Assembly (NCBI GenBank): GCA_026168455.1
Contig: CM047429.1
Coordinates: 1,291,370-1,355,369, forward strand
Length of the DNA: 64,000 bases
Source: Theocolax elegans
Taxonomy: Eukaryota > Arthropoda > Insecta > Hymenoptera > Cerocephalidae
Reading direction: 5' to 3'
Positions 29,209-60,078 of the stretch are shown piece after piece (the stretch's first letter is position 1; each line of letters begins with the position of its first letter). Made by a program: the position numbers and the translations under genes. The notes under the pieces were generated by a model that saw nothing but the letters and a program-made list of their open reading frames with translations, had not been told where the DNA came from and made no database searches.

Positions 29209-29229
29209 TCCATCTTTCTTTCGAGTCTT

Positions 29230-36875: not shown

Positions 36876-36916
36876 ACACTCAATAAACCAATAAATTTCA
36901 GAAAAACCCTTTTAGT

Positions 36917-37449: not shown

Positions 37450-37461
37450 TATATCTGTCAT

Positions 37462-37530
37462 TTGTATCTAGAGACGAGATGCCTGGACTCTACTGTTGAG
37501 CCCACCAGGCATACTCAGGGCGAAATATAA
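37462..37530 (+). ncRNA. Hammerhead 1 (core-broken, edge copy)
   Basis: Core reads CTGTTGA instead of CTGATGA, and stem III closes with TATAA instead of TACAA. Predicted inactive. It is the outermost copy next to the env remnant. Confidence 0.85.
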
Positions 37531-38011
37531 TTTTTTTCTTTTTTTTTTCCGTCTTATTAAATTTTTATTAATTTCAAACTACAATCAACTAAATTTTATA
37601 TTTTTGTTGACCTAGCTTGTCTTAGTCTTTTTCAAACACTCATCGTGTGAGGTTTATAAAGTGGCTGGTATTAATACAGTCCGTCTTACTTGAGATGCGA
37701 GAAATATTTCTTTGGCTTGTAAAGATCAATAAATTCATATATCTTATAACTTAAAGTGTAAGAAAGCAATAAATTCACGAATTTTTCTAATAGTTGGAAA
37801 ATTCAAATTTTAAAAATATATGGCAATGGATCACGAATACGCCTTATGTAACACTAGTCTGACGATTAAGACATTAGTTCTATGTAAGTGCGTTAGGGGG
37901 CTACCTATTTATATGTGGCACTTATTAAAGTTAGCTATCGGTAGGGCATATATACCCCATGTCTTCATCGTCAGAATACAGCTGGTTTTCAAAAATTTTT
38001 ATATTTGTCAT

Positions 38012-38080
38012 TTGTATCTAGAGACGAGATGCCTGGACTCTACTGATGAGCCCACCAGGCATACTCAGAGCGAAATACAA
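38012..38080 (+). ncRNA. Hammerhead 2 (stem II mismatch)
   Basis: Core and GAAA intact; stem II is GCCC/GAGC with one C-A mismatch. Same variant as motif 28. Cleavage predicted after C38018, perhaps slower. Confidence 0.9.
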
Positions 38081-38561
38081 TTTTTTTCTTTTTTTTCCGT
38101 CTTATTAAACTTTTATTAATTTCATACTACAATCAACTAAATTTTACATTTTTGTTTGAGCTAGCTTGTCTTAGTCTTTTTTCAAACACTCATCGTGTGA
38201 GGTTTATAAAGTGGCTGGTATTAATACAGTCCGTCTTACTTGTGATGTGAGGCATATTTCTTTGGCTTGTAAAGATCAATAAATTCATACATCTTATAAC
38301 TTAAAGTGTAAGAAAGCAATTAATTCACGAATTTTTCTAATAGTTGGAAAATTCAAATTGTAAAATTATATGGCATTGGATCACGAATACGCCTTATGTA
38401 ACACTAGTCTGACGATTAAGACATTAGTTCTATGTAAGTGCGTTAGGGGGCTACCTGTTAATATGTGGCACTTATTAAAGTTTGCTATCGGTAGGGCATA
38501 TATACCCCATTTCTTCCTCGTCAGAATACAGCTGGTTTTCAAAAATTTTTATATCTGTCAT

Positions 38562-38630
38562 TTGTATCTAGAGTCGACATGCCTGGACTCTATTGATGAG
38601 CCCACCAGGCATACTCAGGGCGAAATACAA
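38562..38630 (+). ncRNA. Hammerhead 3 (C3U core variant)
   Basis: Core reads TTGATGA: the conserved C3, which pairs with G8 in the active site, is U. Loop I begins TCGAC. Predicted inactive. Matches motif 29. Confidence 0.85.
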
Positions 38631-39112
38631 CTTTTTTCTTTTTTTTTCCCGTCTTATTAAATTTTTATTACTTTCATACTACAATCAACTAAATTTTATA
38701 TTTTTGTTTGAGCTAGCTTGTCTTAGTCTTTTTTCAAACACTCATCGTGTGAGGTTTATAAAGTGGCTGGTATTAATACAGTCCGTCTTACTTGTGATGT
38801 GAGGCATATTTCTTTGGCTTGTAAAGATCAATAAATTCATACATCTTATAACTTAAAGTGTAAGAAAGCAATTAATTCAGAATTTTTCTAATAGTTGGAA
38901 AATTCAAATTTTAAAAATATATGGCAATGGATCACGAATACGTCTTATGTAACACTAGTCTGACGATTAAGACATTAGTTCTATGTAAGTGCGTTAGGGG
39001 GCTACCTATTTATATGTGGTACTTATTAAAGTTAGCTATCGGTAGGGCATATATACCCCATGTCTTCATCGTCAGAATACAGCTGGTTTTCAAAAATTTT
39101 TATATTTGTCAT

Positions 39113-39181
39113 TTGTATCTAGAGACGAGATGCCTGGACTCTACTGATGAGCCCACCAGGCATACTCAGAGCGAAATACAA
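39113..39181 (+). ncRNA. Hammerhead 4 (stem II mismatch)
   Basis: GCCC/GAGC stem II, otherwise ideal. Matches motif 30. Confidence 0.9.
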
Positions 39182-39661
39182 TTTTTTTCTTTTTTTTCCG
39201 TCTTATTAAACTTTTATTAATTTCATACTACAATCAACTAAATTTTACATTTTTGTTTGAGCTAGCTTGTCTTAGTCTTTTTTCAAACACTCATCGTGTG
39301 AGGTTTATAAAGTGGCTGGTATTAATACAGTCCGTCTTACTTGTGATGTGAGGCATATTTCTTGGCTTGTAAAGATCAATAAATTCATACATCTTATAAC
39401 TTAAAGTGTAAGAAAGCAATTAATTCACGAATTTTTCTAATAGTTGGAAAATTCAAATTGTAAAATTATATGGCATTGGATCACGAATACGCCTTATGTA
39501 ACACTAGTCTGACGATTAAGACATTATTTCTATGTAAGTGCGTTAGGGGGCTACCTGTTAATATGTGGCACTTATTAAAGTTTGCTATCGGTAGGGCATA
39601 TATACCCCATTTCTTCCTCGTCAGAATACAGCTGGTTTTCAAAAATTTTTATATCTGTCAT

Positions 39662-39730
39662 TTGTATCTAGAGACGAGATGCCTGGACTCTACTGATGAG
39701 CCCACCAGGCATACTCAGGGCGAAATACAA
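39662..39730 (+). ncRNA. Hammerhead 5 (ideal type III hammerhead; reference description)
   Basis: Read 5' to 3': stem III strand TTGTAT (pairs with ATACAA at the end), cleavage-site C at 39668, stem I TAGAG/CTCTA, 14-nt loop I, core CTGATGA, stem II GCCC/GGGC, 14-nt loop II, core GAAA. The cleavage triplet is AUC, an accepted NUH. Loops I and II contain ATGCCTGG and CCAGGCAT, perfectly complementary over 8 bp, which allows a kissing contact. Six-bp stem III should be stable in a single monomer. Matches motif 31. Confidence 0.95.
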
Positions 39731-40210
39731 TTTTTTTCTTTTTTTTCCGTCTTATTAAATTTTTATTAATTTCATACTACAATCAACTAAATTTTATATT
39801 TTTGTTGACCTACCTTGTCTTAGTCTTTTTTCAAATACTCATCGTGTGAGGTTTATAAAGTGGCTGGTATTAATACAGTCCGTCTTACTTGAGATGTGAG
39901 GAATATTTCTTTGGCTTGTAAAGATCAATAAATTCATATATCTTATAACTTAAAGTGTAAGAAAGCAATAAATTCACGAATTTTTCTAATAGTTGGAAAA
40001 TTCAAATTTTAAAATTATATGGCAATGGATCACGAATACGCCTTATGTAACACTAGTCTGACGATTAAGACATTAGTTCTATGTAAGTGCGTTAGGGGGC
40101 TACCTATTTATATGTGGCACTTATTAAAGTTAGCTATCGGTAGGGCATATATACCCCATGTCTTCATCGTCAGAATACAGCTGGTTTTCAAAAATTTTTA
40201 TATTTGTCAT

Positions 40211-40279
40211 TTGTATCTAGAGACGAGATGCCTGTACTCTACTGATGAGCCCACCAGGCATACTCAGAGCGAAATACCA
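40211..40279 (+). ncRNA. Hammerhead 6 (stem II, stem III and loop variant)
   Basis: GAGC in stem II, TACCA in stem III, and loop I ATGCCTGT loses one kissing pair. The same triple variant is in motif 32. Confidence 0.85.
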
Positions 40280-40759
40280 TTTTTTTCTTTTTTTTCCGTC
40301 TTATTAAACTTTTATTCATTTCATACTACAATCAACTAAATTTTACATTTTTGTTGACCTAGCTTGTCTTAGTCTTTTTTCATACACTGATTGGTGTAAG
40401 GTTTATAAAGTGGCTGGTATTAATACAGTCTGTCTTACTTGAGATGTGAGCAATATTTCTTTGGCTTGTAAAGATCAATAAATTCATATATCTTATAACT
40501 TAAAGTGTAAGAAAGCAATAATTCACGAATTTTGCTAATAGTTGGAAAATTCAAATTGTAAAATTATATGGCATTGGATCACGAATACGCCTTATGTAAC
40601 ACTAGTCTGACGATTAAGACATTAGTTCTATGTAAGTGCGTTAGGGGGCTACCTGTTAATATGTGGCACTTATTAAAGTTTGTTATCGGTAGGGCATATA
40701 TACCCCATGTCTTCCTCGTCAGAATACAGCTGATTTTCAAAAATTTTTATATCTGTCAT

Positions 40760-40828
40760 TTGTATCTAGAGTCGAGATGCCTGGACTCTACTGATGAGCC
40801 CACCAGGCATACTCAGAGCGAAATACAA
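40760..40828 (+). ncRNA. Hammerhead 7 (stem II mismatch)
   Basis: GAGC in stem II; loop I begins TCGAG. Core intact. Matches motif 33. Confidence 0.9.
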
Positions 40829-41307
40829 TTTTTTCTTTTTTTTCCGTCTTATTAAATTTTTATTAATTTCATACTACAATCAACTAAATTTTATATTTTT
40901 GTTGACCTAGCTTGTCTTAGTCTTTTTTCAAATACTCATCGTGTGAGGTTTATAAAGTGGCTGGTATTAATACAGTCCGTCTTACTTGAGATGTGAGGAA
41001 TATTTCTTTGGCTTGTAAAGATCAATAAATTCATATATCTTATAACTTAAAGTGTAAGAAAGCAATAAATTCACGAATTTTGCTAATAGTTGGAAAATTC
41101 AAATTGTAAAATTATATGGCATTGGATCACGAATACGCCTTATGTAACACTAGTCTGACGATTAAAACATTAGTTCTATGTAAGTGCGTGAGGGGGCTAC
41201 CTGTTAATATGTGGCACTTATTAAAGTTTGTTATCGGTAGGGCATATATACCCCATGTCTTCCTCGTCAGAATACAGCTGATTTTCAAAAATTTTTATAT
41301 CTGTCAT

Positions 41308-41376
41308 TTGTATCTAGAAACGAGATGCCTGGACTCTATTGATGAGCCCACCAGGCATACTCAGGGCGAAATACAA
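41308..41376 (+). ncRNA. Hammerhead 8 (C3U, stem I mismatch)
   Basis: Core TTGATGA and stem I TAGAA/CTCTA. Predicted inactive. Same variant as motifs 18 and 34. Confidence 0.85.
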
Positions 41377-41857
41377 TTTTTTTCTTTTTTTTCCGTCTTA
41401 TTAAATTTTTATTACTTTCATACTACAATCAACTAAATTTTATATTTTTGTTTGAGCTAGCTTGTCTTAGTCTTTTTTCAAACACTCATCGTGTGAGGTT
41501 TATAAAGTGGCTGGTATTAATACAGTCCGTCTTACTTGTGATGTGAGGCATATTTCTTTGGCTTGTAAAGATCAATAAATTCATACATCTTATAACTTAA
41601 AGTGTAAGAAAGCAATAAATTCCCGAATTTTTCTAATAGTTGGAAAATTCAAATTGTAAAATTATATGGCATTGGATCACGAATACGCCTTATGTAACAC
41701 TAGTCTGACGATTAAGACATTAGTTCTATGTAAGTGCGTTAGGGGGCTACCTGTTAATATGTGGCACTTATTAAAGTTTGCTATCGGTAGGGCATATATA
41801 CCCCATGTCTTCATCGTCAGAATACAGCTGGTTTTCAAAAATTTTTATATTTGTCAT

Positions 41858-41926
41858 TTGTATCTAGAGACGAGATGCCTGGACTCTACTGATGAGCCCA
41901 CCATGCATACTCAGAGCGAAATACAA
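41858..41926 (+). ncRNA. Hammerhead 9 (stem II and loop II variant)
   Basis: GAGC in stem II; loop II CCATGCAT breaks one kissing pair. Matches motif 35. Confidence 0.85.
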
Positions 41927-42408
41927 TTTTTTTCTTTTTTTTCCGTCTTATTAAACTTTTATTAATTTCATACTACAATCAACTAAATTTTACATTTTTG
42001 TTTGAGCTAGCTTGTCTTAGTCTTTTTTCAAACACTCATCGTGTGAGGTTTATAAAGTGGCTGGTATTAATACAGTCCGTCTTACTTGTGATGTGAGGCA
42101 TATTTCGTTGGCTTGTAAAGATCAATAAATTCATACATCTTATAACTTAAAGTGTAAGAAAGCAATTAATTCACGAATTTTTCTAATAGTTGGAAAATTC
42201 AAATTGTAAAATTATATGGCATTGGATCACGAATACGCCTTATGTAACACTAGTATGACGATTAAGACATTAGTTCTATGTAAGTGCGTTAGGGGGCTAC
42301 CTGTTAATATGTGGCACTTATTAAAGTTTGCTATCGGTAGGGCATATATACCCCATTTCTTTCCTCGTCAGAATACAGCTGGTTTTCAAAAATTTTTATA
42401 TCTGTCAT

Positions 42409-42477
42409 TTGTATCTAGAGACGAGATGCCTGGACTCTACTGATGAGCCCACCAGGCATACTCAGGGCGAAATACAA
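42409..42477 (+). ncRNA. Hammerhead 10 (ideal)
   Basis: All core bases, stems and both kissing octamers as in motif 5. Matches motif 36. Confidence 0.95.
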
Positions 42478-42957
42478 TTTTTTTCTTTTTTTTTCCGTCT
42501 TATTAAATTTTATTAATTTCATACTACAATCAACTAAATTTTATATTTTTGTTGACCTAGCTTGTCTTAGTCTTTTTTCAAACACTCATCGTGTGAGGTT
42601 TATAAAGTGGCTGGTATTAATACAGTCCGTCTTACTTGAGATGTGAGGAATATTTCTTTGGCTTGTAAAGATCAATAAATTCATATATCTTATAACTTAA
42701 AGTGTAAGAAAGCAATAAATTCACGAATTTTTCTAATAGTTGGAAAATTCAAATTTTAAAATTATATGGCATTGGATCACGAATACACCTTATGTAGCAC
42801 TAGTCTGACGATTAAGACATTATTTCTATGTAAGTGCGTTAGGGGGCTACCTGTTAATATGTGGCACTTATTAAAGTTTGATATCGGTAGGGCATACATA
42901 CCCCATGTCTTCCTCGTCAGAATACAGCTGGTTTTCAAAAATTTTTATATCTGTCAT

Positions 42958-43026
42958 TTGTATCTAGAGACGAGATGCCTGGACTCTACTGATGAGCCCA
43001 CCAGGCATACTCAGGGCGAAATACAA
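42958..43026 (+). ncRNA. Hammerhead 11 (ideal)
   Basis: No deviation from the ideal motif. Matches motif 37. Confidence 0.95.
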
Positions 43027-43507
43027 TTTTTTTCTTTTTTTTTCCGTCTTACAAATTTTTATTACTTTCATACTACAATCAACTAAATTTTATATTTTTG
43101 TTTGAACTAGCTTGTCTTAGTCTTTTTTCAAACACTCATCGTGTGAGGTTTATAAAGTGGCTGGTATTAATACAGTCCGTCTTACTTGTGATGTGAGGCA
43201 TATTTCGTTGGCTTGTAAAGATCAATAAATTCATACATCTTATAACTTAAAGTGTAATAAAGCAATTAATTCACGAATTTTTCTAATAGTTGGAAAATTC
43301 AAATTGTAAAATTATATGGCATTGGATCACGAATACGCCTTATGTAACACTAGTCTGACGATTAAGACATTAGTTCTATGTAAGTGCGTTAGGGGGCTAC
43401 CTGTTAATATGTGGCACTTATTAAAGTTTGCGATCGGTAGGGCATATATACCCCATTTCTTTCTCGTCAGAATACAGCTGGTTTTCAAAAATTTTTATAT
43501 CTGTCAT

Positions 43508-43576
43508 TTGTATCTAGAGACGAGATGCCTGGACTCTACTGATGAGCCCACCAGGCATACTCAGGGCGAAATACAA
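43508..43576 (+). ncRNA. Hammerhead 12 (ideal)
   Basis: No deviation from the ideal motif. Matches motif 38. Confidence 0.95.
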
Positions 43577-44057
43577 TTTTTTTCTTTTTTTTCCGTCTTA
43601 TTAAACTTTTATTAATTTCATACTACAATCAACTAAATTTTACATTTTTGTTTGAGCTAGCTTGTCTTAGTCTTTTTTCAAACACTCATCGTGTGAGGTT
43701 TATAAAGTGGCTGGTATTAATACAGTCCGTCTTACTTGTGATGTGAGGCATATTTCGTTGGCTTGTAAAGATCAATAAATTCATACATCTTATAACTTAA
43801 AGTGTAATAAAGCAATTAATTCACGAATTTTTCTAATAGTTGGAAAATTCAAATTGTAAAATTATATGGCATTGGATCACGAATACGCCTTATGTAACAC
43901 TAGTATGACGATTAAGACATTAGTTCTATGTAAGTGCGTTAGGGGGCTACCTGTTAATATGTGGCACTTATTAAAGTTTGCGATCGGTAGGGCATATATA
44001 CCCCATTTCTTTCTCGTCAGAATACAGCTGGTTTTCAAAAATTTTTATATCTGTCAT

Positions 44058-44126
44058 TTGTATCTAGAGACGAGATGCCTGGACTCTACTGATGAGCCCA
44101 CCAGGCATACTCAGGGCGAAATACAA
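44058..44126 (+). ncRNA. Hammerhead 13 (ideal)
   Basis: No deviation from the ideal motif. Matches motif 39. Confidence 0.95.
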
Positions 44127-44608
44127 TTTTTTTCTTTTTTTTTTCCGTCTTATTAAATTTTTATTAATTTCATACTACAATCAACTAAATTTTATATTTT
44201 TGTTGACCTAGCTTGTCTTAGTCTTTTTTCAAACACTCATCGTGTGAGGTTTATAAAGTGGCTGGTATTAATACAGTCCGTCTTACTTGAGATGTGAGGA
44301 ATATTTCTTTGGCTTGTAAAGATCAATAAATTCATATATCTTATAACTTAAAGTGTAAGAAAGCAATAAATTCACGAATTTTTCTAATAGTTGGAAAATT
44401 CAAATTTTAAAATTATATGGCATTGGATCACGAATACACCTTATGTAGCACTAGTCTGACGATTAAGACATTATTTCTATGTAAGTGCGTTAGGGGGCTA
44501 CCTGTTAATATGTGGCACTTATTAAAGTTTGATATCGGTAGGGCATACATACCCCATGTCTTCCTCGTCAGAATACAGCTGGTTTTCAAAAATTTTTATA
44601 TCTGTCAT

Positions 44609-44677
44609 TTGTATCTAGAGACGAGATGCCTGGACTCTACTGATGAGCCCACCAGGCATACTCAGGGCGAAATACAA
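44609..44677 (+). ncRNA. Hammerhead 14 (ideal)
   Basis: No deviation from the ideal motif. Matches motif 40. Confidence 0.95.
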
Positions 44678-45157
44678 TTTTTTTCTTTTTTTTTCCGTCT
44701 TACAAATTTTTATTACTTTCATACTACAATCAACTAAATTTATATTTTTGTTTGAACTAGCTTGTCTTAGTCTTTTTTCAAACACTCATCGTGTGAGGTT
44801 TATAAAGTGGCTGGTATTAATACAGTCCGTCTTACTTGTGATGTGAGGCATATTTCGTTGGCTTGTAAAGATCAATAAATTCATACATCTTATAACTTAA
44901 AGTGTAATAAAGCAATTAATTCACGAATTTTTCTAATAGTTGGAAAATTCAAATTGTAAAATTATATGGCATTGGATCACGAATACGCCTTATGTAACAC
45001 TAGTCTGACGATTAAGACATTAGTTCTATGTAAGTGCGTTAGGGGGCTACCTGTTAATATGTGGCACTTATTAAAGTTTGCGATCGGTAGGGCATATATA
45101 CCCCATTTCTTTCTCGTCAGAATACAGCTGGTTTTCAAAAATTTTTATATCTGTCAT

Positions 45158-45226
45158 TTGTATCTAGAGACGAGATGCCTGGACTCTACTGATGAGCCCA
45201 CCAGGCATACTCAGGGCGAAATACAA
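45158..45226 (+). ncRNA. Hammerhead 15 (ideal)
   Basis: No deviation from the ideal motif. Matches motif 41. Confidence 0.95.
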
Positions 45227-45708
45227 TTTTTTTCTTTTTTTTCCGTCTTATTAAATTTTTATTAATTTCATACTACAATCAACTAAATTTTATATTTTTG
45301 TTGACCTAGCTTGTCTTAGTCTTTTTTCAAACACTCATCGTGTGAGGTTTATAAAGTGGCTGGTATTAATACAGTCCGTCTTACTTGAGATGTGAGGAAT
45401 ATTTCTTTGGCTTGTAAAGATCAATAAATTCATATATCTTATAACTTAAAGTGTAAGAAAGCAATAAATTCACGAATTTTTCTAATAGTTGGAAAATTCA
45501 AATTGTAAATTATATGGCATTGGATCACGAATACAGCCTTATGTAGCACTAGTCTGACGATTAAGACATTAGTTCTATGTAAGTGCGTTAGGGGGCTACC
45601 TGTTTAATATGTGGCACTTATTAAAGTTTGATATCGGTAGGGCATACTATACCCCATGTCTTCCTCGTCAGAATACAGCTGGTTTTCAAAAATTTTTATA
45701 TCTGTCAT

Positions 45709-45777
45709 TTGTATCTAGAGACGAGATGCCTGGACTCTACTGATGAGCCCACCAGGCATACTCAGGGCGAAATACAA
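45709..45777 (+). ncRNA. Hammerhead 16 (ideal)
   Basis: Motif ideal; the rest of this monomer has extra single-base indels (near 45533 and 45604). Matches motif 42. Confidence 0.95.
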
Positions 45778-46257: not shown

Positions 46258-46327
46258 TTGTATCTAGAGACGAGATGCCTGGACTCTACTGATGAAGCCC
46301 ACCAGGCATACTCAGGGCGAAATACAA
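46258..46327 (+). ncRNA. Hammerhead 17 (inserted A after core)
   Basis: CTGATGA is followed by an extra A before stem II (70 nt total). It could be an indel error in the noisy block. Confidence 0.8.
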
Positions 46328-46807
46328 TTTTTTTCTTTTTTTTTTCCGTCTTATTAAATTTTTATTACTTTCATACTACAATCAACTAAATTTTATATTT
46401 TTGTTGACCTAGCTTGTCTTAGTTCTTTTTTCAAACACTCATCGTGTGAGGTTTTATAAAGTGGCTGGTATTAATACAGTCCGTCTTACTTGAGATGTGA
46501 GGCATATTTCGTTGGCTTGTAAAGATCAATAAATTCATATATCTTATAACTTAAAGTGTAAGAAAGCAATAAATTCACGAATTTTTCTAATAGTTGGAAA
46601 ATTCAAATTTTAAAATTATATGGCATTGGATCACGAATACGCCTTATGTAACATAGTCTGACGATTAAACATTAGTTCTATGTAAGTGCGTGAGGGGGCT
46701 ACCTGTTAATATGTGGCACTTATTAAAGTTGTTATCGGTAGGGCATATATACCCCATGTCTTCCTCGTCAGAATACAGCTGTTTTCAAAAATTTTTATAT
46801 CTGTCAT

Positions 46808-46876
46808 TTGTATCTAGAAACGAGATGCCTGGACTCTATTGATGAGCCCACCAGGCATACTCAGGGCGAAATACAA
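46808..46876 (+). ncRNA. Hammerhead 18 (C3U, stem I mismatch)
   Basis: Same pair of changes as motifs 8 and 34; ten monomers downstream of motif 8. Confidence 0.85.
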
Positions 46877-47354
46877 TTTTTTTCTTTTTTTTTCCGTCTT
46901 ATTAAATTTTTATTACTTTCATACTACAATCAACTAAATTTTATATTTTTGTTTGAGCTAGCTTGTCTTAGTCTTTTTTCAAACACTCATCGTGTGAGGT
47001 TTATAAAGTGGCTGGTATTAATACAGTCCGTCTTACTTGTGATGTGAGGCATATTCTTTGGCTTGTAAAGATCAATAAATTCATACATCTTATAACTTAA
47101 AGTGTAAGAAAGCAATAAATTCCGAATTTTTCTAATAGTTGGAAAATTCAAATTTTAAAATTATATGGCATTGGATCACGAATACGCCTTATGTAACATA
47201 GTCTGACGATTAAGACATTAGTTCTATGTAAGTGCGTTAGGGGGCTACCTGTTAATATGTGGCACTTATTAAAGTTTGCTATCGGTAGGGCATATATACC
47301 CCATGTCTTCTCGTCAGAATACAGCTGGTTTTCAAAAATTTTTATATTTGTCAT

Positions 47355-47422
47355 TTGTATCTAGAGACGAGATGCCTGGACTCTACTGATGAGCCCACCA
47401 GGCATACTCAGGCGAAATACAA
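47355..47422 (+). ncRNA. Hammerhead 19 (one base lost in stem II)
   Basis: GGGC is shortened to GGC (68 nt). The core is otherwise intact. It lies in the indel-rich block. Confidence 0.8.
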
Positions 47423-47897
47423 TTTTTTTCTTTTTTTTTCCGTCTTATTAAACTTTTATTAATTTCATACTACAATCAACTAAATTTTACATTTTTGTTG
47501 AGCTAGCTTGTCTTAGTCTTTTTTCAAACACTCATCGTGTGAGGTTTATAAGTGGCTGGTATTAATACAGTCCGTCTTACTTGTGATGTGAGGAATATTT
47601 CTTTGGCTTGTAAAGATCAATAAATTCATACATCTTTAACTTAAAGTGTAAAAAGCAATTAATTCACGAATTTTTCTAATAGTTGGAAAATTCAAATTGT
47701 AAAATTATATGGCATTGGATCACGAATACGCCTTATGTAACATAGTCTGACGATTAAGACATTAGTTCTATGTAAGTGCGTTAGGGGGCTACCTGTTAAT
47801 ATGTGGCACTTATTAAAGTTTGCTATCGGTAGGGCATATATACCCCATTCTTCTCGTCAGAATACAGCTGGTTTTCAAAAATTTTTATATCTGTCAT

Positions 47898-47966
47898 TTG
47901 TATCTAGAGACGAGATGCCTGGACTCTACTGATGAGCCCACCAGGCATACTCAGGGCGAAATACAA
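47898..47966 (+). ncRNA. Hammerhead 20 (ideal)
   Basis: No deviation although the surrounding monomer has several deletions. Confidence 0.95.
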
Positions 47967-48443
47967 TTTTTTTCTTTTTTTTTCCGTCTTATTAATTTTA
48001 TTAATTTCATACTACAATCAACTAAATTTTATATTTTTGTTGACCTAGCTTGTCTTAGTCTTTTTTCAAACACTCATCGTGTGAGGTTTATAAAGTGGCT
48101 GGTATTAATACAGTCCGTCTTACTTGAGATGTGAGGAATATTTCTTTGGCTTGTAAAGATCAATAAATTCATATATCTTATAACTTAAAGTGTAAGAAAG
48201 CAATAAATTCACGAATTTTTCTAATAGTTGGAAAATTCAAATTTTAAAATTATATGGCATTGGATCACGAATACACCTTATGTACACTAGTCTGACGATT
48301 AAGACATTATTTCTATGTAAGTGCGTTAGGGGGCTACCTGTTAATATGTGGCACTTATTAAAGTTTGTATCGGTAGGGCATACATACCCCATGTCTTCCT
48401 CGTCAGAATACAGCTGGTTTTCAAAAATTTTTATATCTGTCAT

Positions 48444-49529: not shown

Positions 49530-49598
49530 TTGTATCTAGAGACGAGATGCCTGGACTCTACTGATGAGCCCACCAGGCATACTCAGGGCGAAATACAA
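49530..49598 (+). ncRNA. Hammerhead 23 (ideal)
   Basis: No deviation from the ideal motif. Confidence 0.95.
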
Positions 49599-50074
49599 TT
49601 TTTTTCTTTTTTTTTCCGTCTTATTAAATTTTTATTAATTTCATACTACAATCAACTAAATTTATATTTTTGTTGACCTAGCTTGTCTTAGTCTTTTTTC
49701 AAACACTCATCGTGTGAGTTTATAAAGTGGCTGGTATTAATACAGTCCGTCTTACTTGAGAGGTGGAGGAATATTTCTTGGCTTGTAAAGATCATAAATT
49801 CATATATCTTATAACTTAAAGTGTAAGAAAGCAATAAATTCACGAATTTTTCTAATAGTTGGAAAATTCAAATTTTAAAATTATATGGCATTGGATCACG
49901 AATACCTTATGTAGCACTAGTCTGACGATTAAGACATTATTTCTATGTAAGTGCGTTAGGGGGCTACCTGTTAATATGTGGCACTTATTAAAGTTTGATA
50001 TCGGTAGGGCATACATACCCCATGTCTTCCTCGTCAGAATACAGCTGGTTTTCAAAAATTTTTATATCTGTCAT

Positions 50075-50143
50075 TTGTATCTAGAGACGAGATGCCTGGA
50101 CTCTACTGATGAGCCCACCAGGCATACTCAGGGCGAAATACAA
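50075..50143 (+). ncRNA. Hammerhead 24 (ideal)
   Basis: Motif ideal; the T-rich tract after it lacks the usual C. Confidence 0.95.
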
Positions 50144-50623
50144 TTTTTTTTTTTTTTTCCGTCTTACAAATTTTTATTACTTTCATACTACAATCAACTA
50201 AATTTTATATTTTTGTTTGAACTAGCTTGTCTTAGTCTTTTTTCAAACACTCATCGTGTGAGGTTTATAAAGTGGCTGGTATTAATACAGTCCGTCTTAC
50301 TTGTGATGTGAGGCATATTTCTTGGCTTGTAAAGATCAATAAATTGCATTACTATCTTATAACTTAAAGTGTAATAAAGCAATAAATTCACGAATGTTGC
50401 TATAGTTGGAAAATTCAAATTGTAAAATTATATGGCATTGGATCACGAATACGCCTTAGGTAAAACTAGTCTGACGATTAAGACATTAGTTCTATGTAAG
50501 TGCGTTAGGGGCTACCTGTTAATATGTGGCACTTATTAAAGTTTGCGATCGGTAGGGCATATATACCCCATTTCTTTCCTCGTCAGAATACAGCTGGTTT
50601 TTCAAAATTTGTATATCTGTCAT

Positions 50624-50692
50624 TTGTATCTAGAGGACGAGATGCCGGACTCTACTGATGAGCCCACCAGGCATACTCAGGGCGAAATACAA
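50624..50692 (+). ncRNA. Hammerhead 25 (loop I altered)
   Basis: An extra G after stem I and a lost T give ATGCCGG in loop I, shortening the kissing match. Core and stems II/III intact. Confidence 0.85.
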
Positions 50693-51171
50693 TTTTTTTC
50701 TTTTTTTTTCCGTCGTATAAATTTTTATTAATTTCATACTACAATCAACTAAATTTTATATTTTTGTTGACCTAGCTTGTCTTAGTCTTTTTTCAACTAC
50801 TCATCGTGGTGAGGTTTCTAAAGTGGCTGGTATTAAGACAGTCCGTCTTACTTGAGATGTGAGAATATTCTTGGCTTGTAAGATCAATAAATTCATTAGT
50901 CTTTATAACTTAAAGTGTAAGAAAGCAATAAATTTCACGAATTTTGCTAATAGTTGGAAAATTCAAATGTGTAAATTATATGGCATTGGATCACGAATAC
51001 GCCTTATGTAACACTAGTCTGACGATTAAGACATTAGTTCTATGTAAGTGCGTTAGGGGGCTACCTGTTAATATGTGGCACTTATTAAAGTTTGCTATCG
51101 GTAGGGCATATATACCCCATGTCTTCCTCGTCAGAATACAGCTGGTTTTCAAAAATTTTTATATCTGTCAT

Positions 51172-51240
51172 TTGTATCTAGAGACGAGATGCCTGGACTC
51201 TACTGATGAGCCCACCAGGCATACTCAGAGCGAAATACAA
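51172..51240 (+). ncRNA. Hammerhead 26 (stem II mismatch)
   Basis: GAGC in stem II; otherwise ideal. Confidence 0.9.
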
Positions 51241-51716
51241 TTTTTTTTTTTTTTTTCCGTCTTATTAAACTTTTATTAATTTCATACTACAATCAACTAA
51301 ATTTTACATTTTTGTTGAGCTAGCTTGTCTTAGTCTTTTTTCAAACACTCATCGTGTGAGGTTTATAAAGTGGCTGGTATTAATACAGTCCGTCTTACTT
51401 GTGATGTGAGGCATATTTCGTTGGCTTGTAAAGATCAATAAATTCATACATCTTATAACTTAAAGTGTAATAAAGCAATAATTCACGAATTTTTCTAATA
51501 GTTGGAAAATTCAAATTGTAAAATTATATGGCATTGGATCACGAATACGCCTTATGTACACTAGTATGACGATTAAGACATTAGTTCTATGTAAGTGCGT
51601 TAGGGGGCTACCTGTTAATATGTGGCACTTATTAAAGTTTGCGATCGGTAGGGCATATATACCCCATTCTTCTCGTCAGAATACAGCTGGTTTTCAAAAA
51701 TTTTTATATCTGTCAT

Positions 51717-51785
51717 TTGTATCTAGAGACGAGATGCCTGGACTCTACTGATGAGCCCACCAGGCATACTCAGGGCGAATACTAA
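51717..51785 (+). ncRNA. Hammerhead 27 (GAAA core shortened)
   Basis: GAAA reads GAA and stem III reads TACTAA. Predicted inactive if real. The tail of this monomer matches that of motif 1. Confidence 0.75.
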
Positions 51786-52265
51786 TTTTTTTCTTTTTTT
51801 TTCCGTCTTATTAAATTTTATTAATTTCAAACTACAATCAACTAAATTTTATATTTTTGTTGACCTAGCTTGTCTTAGTCTTTTTTCAAACACTCATCGT
51901 GTGAGGTTTATAAAGTGGCTGGTATTAATACAGTCCGTCTTACTTGAGATGCGAGAAATATTTCTTTGGCTTGTAAAGATCAATAAATTCATATATCTTA
52001 TAACTTAAAGTGTAAGAAAGCAATAAATTCACGAATTTTTCTAATAGTTGGAAAATTCAAATTTTAAAAATATATGGCAATGGATCACGAATACGCCTTA
52101 TGTAACACTAGTCTGACGATTAAGACATTAGTTCTATGTAAGTGCGTTAGGGGGCTACCTATTTATATGTGGCACTTATTAAAGTTAGCTATCGGTAGGG
52201 CATATATACCCCATGTCTTCATCGTCAGAATACAGCTGGTTTTCAAAAATTTTTATATTTGTCAT

Positions 52266-52334
52266 TTGTATCTAGAGACGAGATGCCTGGACTCTACTGA
52301 TGAGCCCACCAGGCATACTCAGAGCGAAATACAA
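52266..52334 (+). ncRNA. Hammerhead 28 (stem II mismatch)
   Basis: Counterpart of motif 2 with the same GAGC change. Confidence 0.9.
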
Positions 52335-52816
52335 TTTTTTTCTTTTTTTTCCGTCTTATTAAACTTTTATTAATTTCATACTACAATCAACTAAATTTTA
52401 CATTTTTGTTTGAGCTAGCTTGTCTTAGTCTTTTTTTCAAACACTCATCGTGTGAGGTTTATAAAGTGGCTGGTATTAATACAGTCCGTCTTACTTGTGA
52501 TGTGAGGCATATTTCTTTGGCTTGTAAAGATCAATAAATTCATACATCTTATAACTTAAAGTGTAAGAAAGCAATTAATTCACGAATTTTTCTAATAGTT
52601 GGAAAATTCAAATTGTAAAATTATATGGCATTGGATCACGAATACGCCTTATGTAACACTAGTCTGACGATTAAGACATTAGTTCTATGTAAGTGCGTTA
52701 GGGGGCTACCTGTTAATATGTGGCACTTATTAAAGTTTGCTATCGGTAGGGCATATATACCCCATTTCTTCCTCGTCAGAATACAGCTGGTTTTCAAAAA
52801 TTTTTATATCTGTCAT

Positions 52817-52885
52817 TTGTATCTAGAGTCGACATGCCTGGACTCTATTGATGAGCCCACCAGGCATACTCAGGGCGAAATACAA
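52817..52885 (+). ncRNA. Hammerhead 29 (C3U core variant)
   Basis: Counterpart of motif 3, including loop I TCGAC and core TTGATGA. Confidence 0.85.
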
Positions 52886-53368
52886 CTTTTTTTCTTTTTT
52901 TTTCCCGTCTTATTAAATTTTTATTACTTTCATACTACAATCAACTAAATTTTATATTTTTGTTTGAGCTAGCTTGTCTTAGTCTTTTTTCAAACACTCA
53001 TCGTGTGAGGTTTATAAAGTGGCTGGTATTAATACAGTCCGTCTTACTTGTGATGTGAGGCATATTTCTTTGGCTTGTAAAGATCAATAAATTCATACAT
53101 CTTATAACTTAAAGTGTAAGAAAGCAATTAATTCAGAATTTTTCTAATAGTTGGAAAATTCAAATTTTAAAAATATATGGCAATGGATCACGAATACGTC
53201 TTATGTAACACTAGTCTGACGATTAAGACATTAGTTCTATGTAAGTGCGTTAGGGGGCTACCTATTTATATGTGGTACTTATTAAAGTTAGCTATCGGTA
53301 GGGCATATATACCCCATGTCTTCATCGTCAGAATACAGCTGGTTTTCAAAAATTTTTATATTTGTCAT

Positions 53369-53437
53369 TTGTATCTAGAGACGAGATGCCTGGACTCTAC
53401 TGATGAGCCCACCAGGCATACTCAGAGCGAAATACAA
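53369..53437 (+). ncRNA. Hammerhead 30 (stem II mismatch)
   Basis: Counterpart of motif 4. Confidence 0.9.
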
Positions 53438-53917
53438 TTTTTTTCTTTTTTTTCCGTCTTATTAAACTTTTATTAATTTCATACTACAATCAACTAAATT
53501 TTACATTTTTGTTTGAGCTAGCTTGTCTTAGTCTTTTTTCAAACACTCATCGTGTGAGGTTTATAAAGTGGCTGGTATTAATACAGTCCGTCTTACTTGT
53601 GATGTGAGGCATATTTCTTTGGCTTGTAAAGATCAATAAATTCATACATCTTATAACTTAAAGTGTAAGAAAGCAATTAATTCACGAATTTTTCTAATAG
53701 TTGGAAAATTCAAATTGTAAAATTATATGGCATTGGATCACGAATACGCCTTATGTAACACTAGTCTGACGATTAAGACATTATTTCTATGTAAGTGCGT
53801 TAGGGGGCTACCTGTTAATATGTGGCACTTATTAAAGTTTGCTATCGGTAGGGCATATATACCCCATTTCTTCCTCGTCAGAATACAGCTGGTTTTCAAA
53901 ATTTTTATATCTGTCAT

Positions 53918-53986
53918 TTGTATCTAGAGACGAGATGCCTGGACTCTACTGATGAGCCCACCAGGCATACTCAGGGCGAAATACAA
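53918..53986 (+). ncRNA. Hammerhead 31 (ideal)
   Basis: Counterpart of motif 5. Confidence 0.95.
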
Positions 53987-54466
53987 TTTTTTTCTTTTTT
54001 TTCCGTCTTATTAAATTTTTATTAATTTCATACTACAATCAACTAAATTTTATATTTTTGTTGACCTACCTTGTCTTAGTCTTTTTTCAAATACTCATCG
54101 TGTGAGGTTTATAAAGTGGCTGGTATTAATACAGTCCGTCTTACTTGAGATGTGAGGAATATTTCTTTGGCTTGTAAAGATCAATAAATTCATATATCTT
54201 ATAACTTAAAGTGTAAGAAAGCAATAAATTCACGAATTTTTCTAATAGTTGGAAAATTCAAATTTTAAAATTATATGGCAATGGATCACGAATACGCCTT
54301 ATGTAACACTAGTCTGACGATTAAGACATTAGTTCTATGTAAGTGCGTTAGGGGGCTACCTATTTATATGTGGCACTTATTAAAGTTAGCTATCGGTAGG
54401 GCATATATACCCCATGTCTTCATCGTCAGAATACAGCTGGTTTTCAAAAATTTTTATATTTGTCAT

Positions 54467-54535
54467 TTGTATCTAGAGACGAGATGCCTGTACTCTACTG
54501 ATGAGCCCACCAGGCATACTCAGAGCGAAATACCA
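54467..54535 (+). ncRNA. Hammerhead 32 (stem II, stem III and loop variant)
   Basis: Counterpart of motif 6 with the identical triple change (GAGC, TACCA, CTGT). Confidence 0.85.
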
Positions 54536-55015
54536 TTTTTTTCTTTTTTTTCCGTCTTATTAAACTTTTATTCATTTCATACTACAATCAACTAAATTTT
54601 ACATTTTTGTTGACCTAGCTTGTCTTAGTCTTTTTTCATACACTGATTGTGTAAGGTTTATAAAGTGGCTGGTATTAATACAGTCTGTCTTACTTGAGAT
54701 GTGAGCAATATTTCTTTGGCTTGTAAAGATCAATAAATTCATATATCTTATAACTTAAAGTGTAAGAAAGCAATAAATTCACGAATTTTGCTAATAGTTG
54801 GAAAATTCAAATTGTAAAATTATATGGCATTGGATCACGAATACGCCTTATGTAACACTAGTCTGACGATTAAGACATTAGTTCTATGTAAGTGCGTTAG
54901 GGGGCTACCTGTTAATATGTGGCACTTATTAAAGTTTGTTATCGGTAGGGCATATATACCCCATGTCTTCCTCGTCAGAATACAGCTGATTTTCAAAAAT
55001 TTTTATATCTGTCAT

Positions 55016-55084
55016 TTGTATCTAGAGTCGAGATGCCTGGACTCTACTGATGAGCCCACCAGGCATACTCAGAGCGAAATACAA
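55016..55084 (+). ncRNA. Hammerhead 33 (stem II mismatch)
   Basis: Counterpart of motif 7. Confidence 0.9.
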
Positions 55085-55563
55085 TTTTTTTCTTTTTTTT
55101 CCGTCTTATTAAATTTTTATTAATTTCATACTACAATCAACTAAATTTTATATTTTTGTTGACCTAGCTTGTCTTAGTCTTTTTTCAAATACTCATCGTG
55201 TGAGGTTTATAAAGTGGCTGGTATTAATACAGTCCGTCTTACTTGAGATGTGAGGAATATTTCTTTGGCTTGTAAAGATCAATAAATTCATATATCTTAT
55301 AACTTAAAGTGTAAGAAAGCAATAAATTCACGAATTTTGCTAATAGTTGGAAAATTCAAATTGTAAAATTATATGGCATTGGATCACGAATACGCCTTAT
55401 GTAACACTAGTCTGACGATTAAAACATTAGTTCTATGTAAGTGCGTGAGGGGGCTACCTGTTAATATGTGGCACTTATTAAAGTTTGTTATCGGTAGGGC
55501 ATATATACCCCATGTCTTCCTCGTCAGAATACAGCTGATTTTCAAAATTTTTATATCTGTCAT

Positions 55564-55632
55564 TTGTATCTAGAAACGAGATGCCTGGACTCTATTGATG
55601 AGCCCACCAGGCATACTCAGGGCGAAATACAA
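55564..55632 (+). ncRNA. Hammerhead 34 (C3U, stem I mismatch)
   Basis: Counterpart of motif 8. Confidence 0.85.
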
Positions 55633-56114
55633 TTTTTTTCTTTTTTTTTCCGTCTTATTAAATTTTTATTACTTTCATACTACAATCAACTAAATTTTAT
55701 ATTTTTGTTTGAGCTAGCTTGTCTTAGTCTTTTTTCAAACACTCATCGTGTGAGGTTTATAAAGTGGCTGGTATTAATACAGTCCGTCTTACTTGTGATG
55801 TGAGGCATATTTCTTTGGCTTGTAAAGATCAATAAATTCATACATCTTATAACTTAAAGTGTAAGAAAGCAATAAATTCCCGAATTTTTCTAATAGTTGG
55901 AAAATTCAAATTGTAAAATTATATGGCATTGGATCACGAATACGCCTTATGTAACACTAGTCTGACGATTAAGACATTAGTTCTATGTAAGTGCGTTAGG
56001 GGGCTACCTGTTAATATGTGGCACTTATTAAAGTTTGCTATCGGTAGGGCATATATACCCCATGTCTTCATCGTCAGAATACAGCTGGTTTTCAAAAATT
56101 TTTATATTTGTCAT

Positions 56115-56183
56115 TTGTATCTAGAGACGAGATGCCTGGACTCTACTGATGAGCCCACCATGCATACTCAGAGCGAAATACAA
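56115..56183 (+). ncRNA. Hammerhead 35 (stem II and loop II variant)
   Basis: Counterpart of motif 9, with CCATGCAT in loop II. Confidence 0.85.
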
Positions 56184-56664
56184 TTTTTTTCTTTTTTTTC
56201 CGTCTTATTAAACTTTTATTAATTTCATACTACAATCAACTAAATTTTACATTTTTGTTTGAGCTAGCTTGTCTTAGTCTTTTTTCAAACACTCATCGTG
56301 TGAGGTTTATAAAGTGGCTGGTATTAATACAGTCCGTCTTACTTGTGATGTGAGGCATATTTCGTTGGCTTGTAAAGATCAATAAATTCATACATCTTAT
56401 AACTTAAAGTGTAATAAAGCAATTAATTCACGAATTTTTCTAATAGTTGGAAAATTCAAATTGTAAAATTATATGGCATTGGATCACGAATACGCCTTAT
56501 GTAACACTAGTATGACGATTAAGACATTAGTTCTATGTAAGTGCGTTAGGGGGCTACCTGTTAATATGTGGCACTTATTAAAGTTTGCGATCGGTAGGGC
56601 ATATATACCCCATTTCTTTCTCGTCAGAATACAGCTGGTTTTCAAAAATTTTTATATCTGTCAT

Positions 56665-56733
56665 TTGTATCTAGAGACGAGATGCCTGGACTCTACTGAT
56701 GAGCCCACCAGGCATACTCAGGGCGAAATACAA
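56665..56733 (+). ncRNA. Hammerhead 36 (ideal)
   Basis: Counterpart of motif 10. Confidence 0.95.
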
Positions 56734-57216
56734 TTTTTTTCTTTTTTTTTTTCCGTCTTATTAAATTTTTATTAATTTCATACTACAATCAACTAAATTT
56801 TATATTTTTGTTGACCTAGCTTGTCTTAGTCTTTTTTCAAACACTCATCGTGTGAGGTTTATAAAGTGGCTGGTATTAATACAGTCCGTCTTACTTGAGA
56901 TGTGAGGAATATTTCTTTGGCTTGTAAAGATCAATAAATTCATATATCTTATAACTTAAAGTGTAAGAAAGCAATAAATTCACGAATTTTTCTAATAGTT
57001 GGAAAATTCAAATTTTAAAATTATATGGCATTGGATCACGAATACACCTTATGTAGCACTAGTCTGACGATTAAGACATTATTTCTATGTAAGTGCGTTA
57101 GGGGGCTACCTGTTAATATGTGGCACTTATTAAAGTTTGATATCGGTAGGGCATACATACCCCATGTCTTCCTCGTCAGAATACAGCTGGTTTTCAAAAA
57201 TTTTTATATCTGTCAT

Positions 57217-57285
57217 TTGTATCTAGAGACGAGATGCCTGGACTCTACTGATGAGCCCACCAGGCATACTCAGGGCGAAATACAA
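57217..57285 (+). ncRNA. Hammerhead 37 (ideal)
   Basis: Counterpart of motif 11. Confidence 0.95.
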
Positions 57286-57767
57286 TTTTTTTCTTTTTTT
57301 TTTTCCGTCTTACAAATTTTTATTACTTTCATACTACAATCAACTAAATTTTATATTTTTGTTTGAACTAGCTTGTCTTAGTCTTTTTTCAAACACTCAT
57401 CGTGTGAGGTTTATAAAGTGGCTGGTATTAATACAGTCCGTCTTACTTGTGATGTGAGGCATATTTCGTTGGCTTGTAAAGATCAATAAATTCATACATC
57501 TTATAACTTAAAGTGTAATAAAGCAATTAATTCACGAATTTTTCTAATAGTTGGAAATTCAAATTGTAAAATTATATGGCATTGGATCACGAATACGCCT
57601 TATGTAACACTAGTCTGACGATTAAGACATTAGTTCTATGTAAGTGCGTTAGGGGGCTACCTGTTAATATGTGGCACTTATTAAAGTTTGCGATCGGTAG
57701 GGCATATATACCCCATTTCTTTCTCGTCAGAATACAGCTGGTTTTCAAAAATTTTTATATCTGTCAT

Positions 57768-57836
57768 TTGTATCTAGAGACGAGATGCCTGGACTCTACT
57801 GATGAGCCCACCAGGCATACTCAGGGCGAAATACAA
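57768..57836 (+). ncRNA. Hammerhead 38 (ideal)
   Basis: Counterpart of motif 12. Confidence 0.95.
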
Positions 57837-58317
57837 TTTTTTTCTTTTTTTTCCGTCTTATTAAACTTTTATTAATTTCATACTACAATCAACTAAATTT
57901 TACATTTTTGTTTGAGCTAGCTTGTCTTAGTCTTTTTTCAAACACTCATCGTGTGAGGTTTATAAAGTGGCTGGTATTAATACAGTCCGTCTTACTTGTG
58001 ATGTGAGGCATATTTCGTTGGCTTGTAAAGATCAATAAATTCATACATCTTATAACTTAAAGTGTAATAAAGCAATTAATTCACGAATTTTTCTAATAGT
58101 TGGAAAATTCAAATTGTAAAATTATATGGCATTGGATCACGAATACGCCTTATGTAACACTAGTATGACGATTAAGACATTAGTTCTATGTAAGTGCGTT
58201 AGGGGGCTACCTGTTAATATGTGGCACTTATTAAAGTTTGCGATCGGTAGGGCATATATACCCCATTTCTTTCTCGTCAGAATACAGCTGGTTTTCAAAA
58301 ATTTTTATATCTGTCAT

Positions 58318-58386
58318 TTGTATCTAGAGACGAGATGCCTGGACTCTACTGATGAGCCCACCAGGCATACTCAGGGCGAAATACAA
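58318..58386 (+). ncRNA. Hammerhead 39 (ideal)
   Basis: Counterpart of motif 13. Confidence 0.95.
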
Positions 58387-58868
58387 TTTTTTTCTTTTTT
58401 TTTTTCCGTCTTATTAAATTTTTATTAATTTCATACTACAATCAACTAAATTTTATATTTTTGTTGACCTAGCTTGTCTTAGTCTTTTTTCAAACACTCA
58501 TCGTGTGAGGTTTATAAAGTGGCTGGTATTAATACAGTCCGTCTTACTTGAGATGTGAGGAATATTTCTTTGGCTTGTAAAGATCAATAAATTCATATAT
58601 CTTATAACTTAAAGTGTAAGAAAGCAATAAATTCACGAATTTTTCTAATAGTTGGAAAATTCAAATTTTAAAATTATATGGCATTGGATCACGAATACAC
58701 CTTATGTAGCACTAGTCTGACGATTAAGACATTATTTCTATGTAAGTGCGTTAGGGGGCTACCTGTTAATATGTGGCACTTATTAAAGTTTGATATCGGT
58801 AGGGCATACATACCCCATGTCTTCCTCGTCAGAATACAGCTGGTTTTCAAAATTTTTATATCTGTCAT

Positions 58869-58937
58869 TTGTATCTAGAGACGAGATGCCTGGACTCTAC
58901 TGATGAGCCCACCAGGCATACTCAGGGCGAAATACAA
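58869..58937 (+). ncRNA. Hammerhead 40 (ideal)
   Basis: Counterpart of motif 14. Confidence 0.95.
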
Positions 58938-59418
58938 TTTTTTTCTTTTTTTTTTCCGTCTTACAAATTTTTATTACTTTCATACTACAATCAACTAAAT
59001 TTTATATTTTTGTTTGAACTAGCTTGTCTTAGTCTTTTTTCAAACACTCATCGTGTGAGGTTTATAAAGTGGCTGGTATTAATACAGTCCGTCTTACTTG
59101 TGATGTGAGGCATATTTCGTTGGCTTGTAAAGATCAATAAATTCATACATCTTATAACTTAAAGTGTAATAAAGCAATTAATTCACGAATTTTTCTAATA
59201 GTTGGAAAATTCAAATTGTAAAATTATATGGCATTGGATCACGAATACGCCTTATGTAACACTAGTCTGACGATTAAGACATTAGTTCTATGTAAGTGCG
59301 TTAGGGGGCTACCTGTTAATATGTGGCACTTATTAAAGTTTGCGATCGGTAGGGCATATATACCCCATTTCTTTCTCGTCAGAATACAGCTGGTTTTCAA
59401 AATTTTTATATCTGTCAT

Positions 59419-59487
59419 TTGTATCTAGAGACGAGATGCCTGGACTCTACTGATGAGCCCACCAGGCATACTCAGGGCGAAATACAA
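59419..59487 (+). ncRNA. Hammerhead 41 (ideal)
   Basis: Counterpart of motif 15. Confidence 0.95.
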
Positions 59488-59968
59488 TTTTTTTCTTTTT
59501 TTTTCCGTCTTATTAAATTTTTATTAATTTCATACTACAATCAACTAAATTTTATATTTTTGTTGACCTAGCTTGTCTTAGTCTTTTTTCAAACACTCAT
59601 CGTGTGAGGTTTATAAAGTGGCTGGTATTAATACAGTCCGTCTTACTTGAGATGTGAGGAATATTTCTTTGGCTTGTAAAGATCAATAAATTCATATATC
59701 TTATAACTTAAAGTGTAAGAAAGCAATAAATTCACGAATTTTTCTAATAGTTGGAAAATTCAAATTGTAAAATTATATGGCATTGGATCACGAATACACC
59801 TTATGTAGCACTAGTCTGACGATTAAGACATTATTTCTATGTAAGTGCGTTAGGGGGCTACCTGTTAATATGTGGCACTTATTAAAGTTTGATATCGGTA
59901 GGGCATACATACCCCATGTCTTCCTCGTCAGAATACAGCTGGTTTTCAAAAATTTTTATATCTGTCAT

Positions 59969-60037
59969 TTGTATCTAGAGACGAGATGCCTGGACTCTAC
60001 TGATGAGCCCACCAGGCATACTCAGGGCGAAATACAA
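59969..60037 (+). ncRNA. Hammerhead 42 (ideal, last copy)
   Basis: Counterpart of motif 16. The array ends 41 bp after it. Confidence 0.95.
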
Positions 60038-60078
60038 TTTTTTTCTTTTTTTTTCCGTCTTATTAAATTTTTATTAAT

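Follow-up and report, generated by a model that had tools for sequence, protein, structure and literature searches.

The right part of a 64,000-nt stretch of the Theocolax elegans (Hymenoptera) genome (contig CM047429.1; this whole stretch is the window below) is occupied by a tandem satellite array, and every monomer of the array contains a motif laid out as a type III hammerhead self-cleaving ribozyme. We consider it probable that the array is a satellite whose ~550-bp unit carries a type III hammerhead with a possible 8-bp pseudoknot, that it is self-cleaving, as predicted, if transcribed, and that it was enlarged at the DNA level. Judged by its sequence, this is a real, well-preserved ribozyme-bearing satellite.

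An ungapped comparison across the whole window, with a copy cutoff of 40 identical positions of 69, found 42 copies of the 69-nt motif on the plus strand, the first at 37462 and the last at 59969, and no minus-strand copy. The copies lie 539 to 552 bp apart, with 29 of the 41 spacings at 549 to 551 bp. The preliminary description of this DNA, made from the sequence alone, had claimed 42 copies, one for each ~550-bp tandem unit, and the comparison agrees. Between successive cleavage sites there are 41 units of 539 to 552 bp, to which partial ends are added: the left border of the array is 12 bp upstream of the first hammerhead, and the right border is 110 bp past the start of the last. Pairwise identity among the 41 units averages 96.2% (minimum, 92.3%), so that the array has the long head-to-tail structure and the homogenised units of a satellite. 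Its GC content is 0.319 to 0.338 (2-kb steps, 38001-60000). The array and the parts of copy 10, our type example, are as follows.

37450..60078, plus strand: tandem satellite array, head to tail (from the motif comparison; borders judged by eye from the flanks printed beside inner units)
42409..42477, plus strand: copy 10, with the ideal 69-nt type III hammerhead sequence that 21 copies share (sequence parse; RF00008, 34.5 bits, E 4.9e-5)
42409..42414, plus strand: stem III 5' strand UUGUAU, partner 42472-42477 (sequence parse)
42415, plus strand: predicted cleavage 3' of this C, in an AUC triplet (site placed by the hammerhead model; all 42 copies have the C)
42416..42439, plus strand: stem I UAGAG/CUCUA with 14-nt loop ACGAGAUGCCUGGA (sequence parse)
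42426..42433, plus strand: possible 8-bp loop-loop pseudoknot, strand in loop I, AUGCCUGG (complementarity in the sequence)
42440..42446, plus strand: core CUGAUGA (pattern search and parse)
42447..42468, plus strand: stem II GCCC/GGGC with 14-nt loop ACCAGGCAUACUCA (parse; GGGC in 30 of 42 copies)
42452..42459, plus strand: loop II half of the possible pseudoknot, CCAGGCAU (complementarity in the sequence)
42469..42477, plus strand: GAAA core together with the 3' strand of stem III, AUACAA, which shares its first A with the end of GAAA (parse)

Read 5' to 3', the motif runs UUGUAU C / UAGAG-ACGAGAUGCCUGGA-CUCUA-CUGAUGA-GCCC-ACCAGGCAUACUCA-GGGC-GAA-AUACAA. This is the type III layout, with an open stem III of 6 bp, an AUC triplet, a 5-bp stem I, CUGAUGA, a 4-bp stem II and GAAA; the 6 bp of stem III we take to include U16.1-A15.1 in standard hammerhead numbering. 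The CUGANGA...GAAA core and the NUH triplet are intact in 33 of 42 copies, and the three helices, with stem III open, are complete at 6, 5 and 4 bp in 22. In each unit, a T-run with one C stands directly 3' of the hammerhead (e.g., 42478-42494), the length of which varies among the units printed. A T-run of this kind is expected to stop RNA polymerase III (Pol III). ARAGORN found no tRNA genes in the window.

How well has the motif been kept? A parse of all 42 copies showed the ideal 69-mer in 21. In copy 25, stems and core are intact and loop I is shifted. Eleven further copies have an intact core and a C-A mismatch in stem II (GAGC for GGGC), two of which, copies 6 and 32, carry an additional mismatch in stem III; one loop-loop pair is lost in copies 6, 9, 32 and 35. 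The core or a junction is broken in the remaining 9: copy 1 has A6U; copies 3, 8, 18, 29 and 34 have C3U; copy 17 has an inserted A; copy 19 lacks one stem II base; and copy 27 lacks one A of GAAA. Copies with C3U or A6U are expected to be inactive. The cleavage C is kept in all 42 copies, and stem I is fully paired in 39. An exact CTGATGA followed by GAAA occurs in 35 copies, including copies 17 and 19, which are damaged beside the core. Hence, the motif is in every monomer, the core is intact in about four of five and the whole is perfect in about half; the earlier statement that every monomer encodes a hammerhead holds for the motif but not for the 9 copies with a broken core.

Exact CTGATGA with GAAA matched 38 times in the window, 35 times in the array and 3 times outside it on the minus strand, while 100 shuffles gave a mean of 1.47 matches and at most 7, a comparison weakened by the non-independence of repeat copies. 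A strict structural descriptor, composed after the motif was known, matched 22 times in the array; it matched nowhere on the remaining plus strand of the window, nowhere on the whole minus strand and nowhere in 20 Mb of random sequence (one strand, with the dinucleotide make-up of the array).

The two 14-nt loops also fit a working ribozyme. They hold a perfect 8-nt complement, AUGCCUGG/CCAGGCAU, placed symmetrically as 5+8+1 and 1+8+5, and the chance of at least 8 complementary nucleotides between two random 14-mers of the array is about 0.002. Across the 12 distinct rows of the covariation set described below, 93.8% of the loop-loop cells are paired. In the excerpted text, Perreault et al. 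(PMC3088659) estimate that about 40% of hammerheads probably have a Watson-Crick pseudoknot between their loops, and they show that a type II example needs one in order to cleave fast. Taken together, the layout, the strand bias, the Rfam E-values given below, the chance controls and the loop-loop complement argue for the type III hammerhead in a satellite that had been proposed.

Several results weigh against a functioning hammerhead. The Rfam model search suggested in the preliminary description gave a divided answer: over the whole window there was no match at a gathering threshold, the best of the 42 copies having 35.4 of the 48.5 bits required, but 22 copies matched RF00008 below threshold at E of 0.0012 or less. 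One more copy stood at 0.092, and the other 19 had no listing at E of 1 or less. A search confined to 42000-44500 (2.5 kb) found all four copies there at 34.5 bits and E 4.9e-5. In our view the gathering score is missed in part because the model has to treat the long loops as insertions. By the wording of the preliminary description the shortfall would count as a refutation; since the sub-threshold E-values are significant, we do not take it as one.

As a yardstick, we scored against Rfam 8 of 54 IMG/VR loci that have an exact hammerhead-like core; these cores are themselves unproven, which makes the control a weak one. At the pattern, one locus (L009) reached the gathering score, four (L002, L022, L027 and L010, the last at 2 of its 4 places) had sub-threshold hammerhead matches of 26 to 34 bits, and three had none (L008 and L018, and L007, where a match lay elsewhere in the locus). 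The 54 loci come from a looser core pattern with 57 matches, of which only 2 parse as type III under the parsing rules used; because of this they yield no base rate for loop-loop pairing. The 26-nt core-and-loop pattern had no exact match in IMG/VR or in prokaryote genome contigs, neither collection being meant for insects. In L010 (11649-13165), four hammerhead-like cores lie 423 to 534 bp apart, apparently between short genes; by eye they are type I (open stem I GCCA/TGGC) and resemble the clusters described in the excerpt of Perreault et al.

Folding is a second difficulty. The 8-nt complement is present, but a competing hairpin uses the same nucleotides, and there is no covariation. The minimum-energy fold of the 69-mer is a plain hairpin of -21.3 kcal/mol, made of these 8 nt and the adjoining GAG/CUC, whereas the three hammerhead stems alone amount to -9.0 kcal/mol; in the pseudoknot-free ensemble, stems I and II have a pair probability near 0. 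In native context (189 nt, 60 nt on each side), the free fold reaches -30.4 kcal/mol versus -18.2 kcal/mol with the hammerhead stems enforced. The 8-bp loop-loop duplex is worth -12.8 kcal/mol, and when it is added in, both states of the 69-mer are about equal, although this sum is rough and leaves out the cost of closing the pseudoknot. Programs that exclude pseudoknots cannot decide between the hairpin and the kissing hammerhead. Ribozyme activity is thus not assured, because the competing hairpin is what standard folding prefers. When prefixes of increasing length are folded, the stem I pairs prevail at 30 to 39 nt, whereas from 42 nt onward other folds take over and the rival hairpin is the last of them; folding order may therefore be of consequence.

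Conservation offered no help. A recount over 39 units, with gaps as a state and with copy 25, copy 1 and the last partial unit left out, placed 17 events in the 69 hammerhead sites, where 28.8 were expected (P 0.10), and 201 in the other 481 sites; the hammerhead ranks 112 of 550 circular windows. The 14 core positions had 3 events versus 5.9 expected (P 0.35). Our first count (40 units, likewise without copy 1 and the last partial unit) had even made the hammerhead more changed than the rest, with 26 events in 69 sites versus 125 in 481 and rank 457 of 550, an excess inflated by copy 25, where one insertion and one deletion displace the loop. In this single array, neither count gave a significant conservation footprint on the hammerhead. 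The covariation set consisted of 22 copies out of the 42, namely the ideal sequence, taken once, and the 21 non-ideal copies; together they form 12 distinct rows. Pairing is kept in 94.5% of pair cells, versus 29.5 to 43.7% when partners are slid. No pair is altered on both sides in these rows, shuffled controls equal the observed covariation score, and the control slid by +3 scores higher (0.033 versus 0.020). Both kinds of test are weak because of recent homogenisation. We conclude that current function, which may exist, gains no support from them.

If the plus strand is transcribed, the intact copies would fold and the RNA would be cut 3' of the C in UUGUAUC. No dimer would be needed for cleavage, since stem III can form within one unit, and a long transcript would be reduced to ~550-nt pieces, each beginning with a 5'-OH and ending in a 2',3'-cyclic phosphate. 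The array itself has expanded by ordinary DNA recombination and segmental duplication, as its internal order indicates. Two blocks of 15 monomers, 26 monomers apart, repeat each other in the same monomer order:

37469..45715, plus strand: 15-monomer block, first copy (monomers 1-15; alignment to the second copy)
51724..59968, plus strand: 15-monomer block, second copy (monomers 27-41; alignment to the first copy)

The blocks are 99.48% identical (8221 identities, 7 mismatches and 36 gap positions), and mean identity at lag 26 is 0.996 versus 0.9625 overall. Because the block order repeats at lag 26 with 99.5% identity, the array looks to have been built by unequal exchange and segmental duplication of DNA, and reverse transcription of circles is not needed to explain the pattern. 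An assembly error could mimic the 26-monomer duplication. Within monomers 9-15 and 35-41, mean identity is 0.988 at lag 3, 0.983 at lag 5 and 0.964 at lag 1, a hint of higher-order units; a clean three-monomer period was not established, since lag 5 is nearly as high as lag 3. Monomers 17-26 (46265-51723), which the duplication does not include, are in many cases shorter (539-550 bp), and the array contains nothing close to monomers 17, 24 and 25 (best, 0.955-0.971).

We compared the array with known hammerhead systems, following the cited papers as excerpted. Type I hammerheads are found mostly in animal repeats and type III mostly in plants and their circular agents (PMC7229834, PMC6155905, PMC7761336), with type III exceptions in termites, dipterans and a toad agent (PMC7936874); a 2020 review mentions type III elements in insects, partly from work in preparation (PMC7761336). 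The nearest satellite, which we compared by description, is pDo500 of Dolichopoda cave crickets, an insect satellite with a 463- to 505-bp unit and, in each repeat, a hammerhead that is reported to be active (PMC2837043). It differs in having a 49-nt hammerhead region with a stem III that pairs within one sequence and, as we infer, an open stem I. pDo500 is counted as type I (PMC7761336), whereas the Theocolax array is type III, and over 12 species it has the conservation footprint and compensatory changes (PMC2837043) that this single array lacks. The satellite hammerheads of newts and schistosomes are likewise satellite-encoded and self-cleaving, cleavage being a prediction in the Theocolax array; they are type I, with a newt unit of ~330 bp (PMC7229834, PMC6155905), in contrast to type III and ~550 bp here. 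The array would be expected to work like the newt, schistosome and Dolichopoda satellites, with one ribozyme in each unit cutting transcripts to unit length. These hammerhead satellites, cited as precedents at the outset, do exist, but the types had been mixed, for all three are counted as type I (PMC7229834, PMC7761336).

Retrozymes and delta-like agents share other traits with the array. The animal non-long terminal repeat (non-LTR) retrozymes of coral, mussel and axolotl are also low-GC head-to-tail repeats with one hammerhead per unit, but they are type I, have repeats of 150 to 450 bp and are expressed as circles (PMC7229834), whereas the array is type III, with a unit of ~550 bp. The low-GC tandem repeat of that class is thus found here, and the type I hammerhead in a 150- to 450-bp repeat is not. 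Plant LTR retrozymes are type III, with repeats of a similar order (600-1000 bp); they differ in their LTRs, primer-binding site, 4-bp target duplications and GC content over 55% and in being mostly monomers or dimers (PMC7229834, PMC7761336). The Theocolax array has 42 tandem copies at 32 to 34% GC, and inspection of its unit by eye showed no LTRs, primer-binding site or polypurine tract. The extended type III hammerheads of termite and toad delta-like RNAs and of dipteran genomes are animal type III as well, with a 5-bp lower stem I and a Watson-Crick contact between loops I and II, GCCR/YGGC (PMC7936874), to which a possible contact GCCU/AGGC in the array would correspond. They have a longer helix I with an internal loop and an extra hairpin and a 6-bp helix II (PMC7936874), as against 14-nt loops and a 4-bp stem II, and the termite genome copies are isolated (PMC7936874), as against a long satellite. 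The same excerpt says that the extended architecture was searched for in some hymenopterans and not found (PMC7936874).

The preliminary description had gone further, proposing a transcribed, RNA-based amplifying element instead of an ordinary satellite. In its full form the array would be a retrozyme-like mobile element: self-cleaved units would be ligated to ~550-nt circles, and the reverse transcriptase of a retrotransposon would copy these for renewed insertion in tandem. Animal retrozymes are indeed low-GC hammerhead tandem repeats that accumulate as circles (PMC7229834, as excerpted), and the array has 32 to 34% GC and one hammerhead in each head-to-tail unit. We think this unlikely: type and repeat length do not match those of animal retrozymes, growth looks DNA-level, blastn with about two units as query found no stray unit-like sequence in the ~41 kb of the window outside the array, and the printed flanks, inspected by eye, showed no insertion-marking repeat at the array ends. 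The plus strand of one unit, moreover, folds only slightly better than its shuffles (z -1.8), 4 of 100 of which did as well. Nothing in the window supports amplification through RNA, though it may have taken place.

Perhaps the ribozyme is instead a relic, inherited with the founding unit and passively carried, its transcripts absent or held in the hairpin, and idle today? The missing footprint and compensatory changes would fit, as would the 9 broken copies, the 11 with a weakened stem II and the hairpin preferred by pseudoknot-free folding. Against this stand the 21 perfect copies, the cleavage C in 42 of 42 and the full stem I in 39 of 42, and the footprint test is weak either way after recent homogenisation; we regard a relic as somewhat doubtful. 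It is extremely improbable, by contrast, that the only real feature is the inverted repeat GAGAUGCCUGG/CCAGGCAUACUC, with a hammerhead core coincidentally around it. That hairpin is the minimum-energy fold, and the unit of copy 10 contains just one other perfect 8-nt inverted repeat whose arms are separated. However, core, triplet and three helices all fit, the descriptor found nothing in 20 Mb of random sequence, the Rfam E-value is 4.9e-5 and the arms of the repeat fall precisely within the two loops between which active hammerheads make contact. We therefore retain the satellite with a predicted self-cleaving type III hammerhead and DNA-level growth as the best explanation.

On its left side, the array follows directly on the remains of a retrotransposon:

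30299..37449, plus strand: retrotransposon remains, gypsy-like by the names of relatives, ending at the array (open reading frames [ORFs]; relatives with reverse-transcriptase domain PF00078)

This element lies on the strand of the array, so any transcripts from it would enter the array in the sense direction. A protein search with one of the retrotransposon ORFs had 1335 matches; among the 120 listed, the best named ones come from Osmia, Anthophora and Lasioglossum bees and Lasius and Cataglyphis ants and, lower down, from Trichogramma and other insects, at about 45 to 56% identity. In 27500-37450 there are no LTR-like direct repeats of at least 60 nt, just a 25-bp tandem array. The right flank is unrelated sequence with 50% GC over 60001-62000. 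Elsewhere in the window, a Ty1/copia piece has few named protein matches, including Trichogramma, Trichomalopsis and plants (best match, 72%), and the ORF at 1948-3117 had no match in a protein search. Taken by themselves, these retrotransposon relatives make a hymenopteran host likely. The tandem arrays listed for the window include three others, at 8340-8579 (38 bp x 6.3), 26482-27630 (255 bp x 4.5) and 29912-30116 (25 bp x 8.2). At 22609-22836, Rfam MIR2670 matched below threshold on both strands (E 1.8e-8 on plus, 0.099 on minus); this pattern points to an inverted repeat that may be a small DNA transposon.

Hammerhead satellites and insect type III hammerheads as such were already known; a type III hammerhead in a long hymenopteran satellite is a novel combination. 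No report of such a satellite in Hymenoptera appeared among the literature matches listed, a set in which subscription papers lie mostly outside the scope. For some satellites of Hymenoptera, hammerhead-like structures have reportedly been considered; a 2004 paper by Rouleux-Bonnin deals with satellite DNA of Bombus. Since frequent transcription is reported for hymenopteran satellites (PMC2220036, as excerpted), the predicted ~550-nt RNAs with defined ends are directly testable. More speculatively, and we give this little credence, hymenopteran type III pseudoknotted elements might exist both as arrays and as ~550-nt RNAs that cleave themselves and circularise. They would then be to animals what type III retrozymes are to plants, and insect delta-like agents might have obtained their type III hammerheads from them; the shared 8 nt might switch the RNA between an inactive hairpin and an active ribozyme with kissing loops.

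A satellite with a ribozyme in each unit is an architecture rarely reported for animal repeat DNA. The array offers dozens of natural variants side by side, from ideal copies to those with a weakened stem II or a broken core. If the reading is true, the picture in which type I belongs mostly to animal repeats and type III mostly to plants and their circular agents would have to be widened to take in a long insect satellite of type III.

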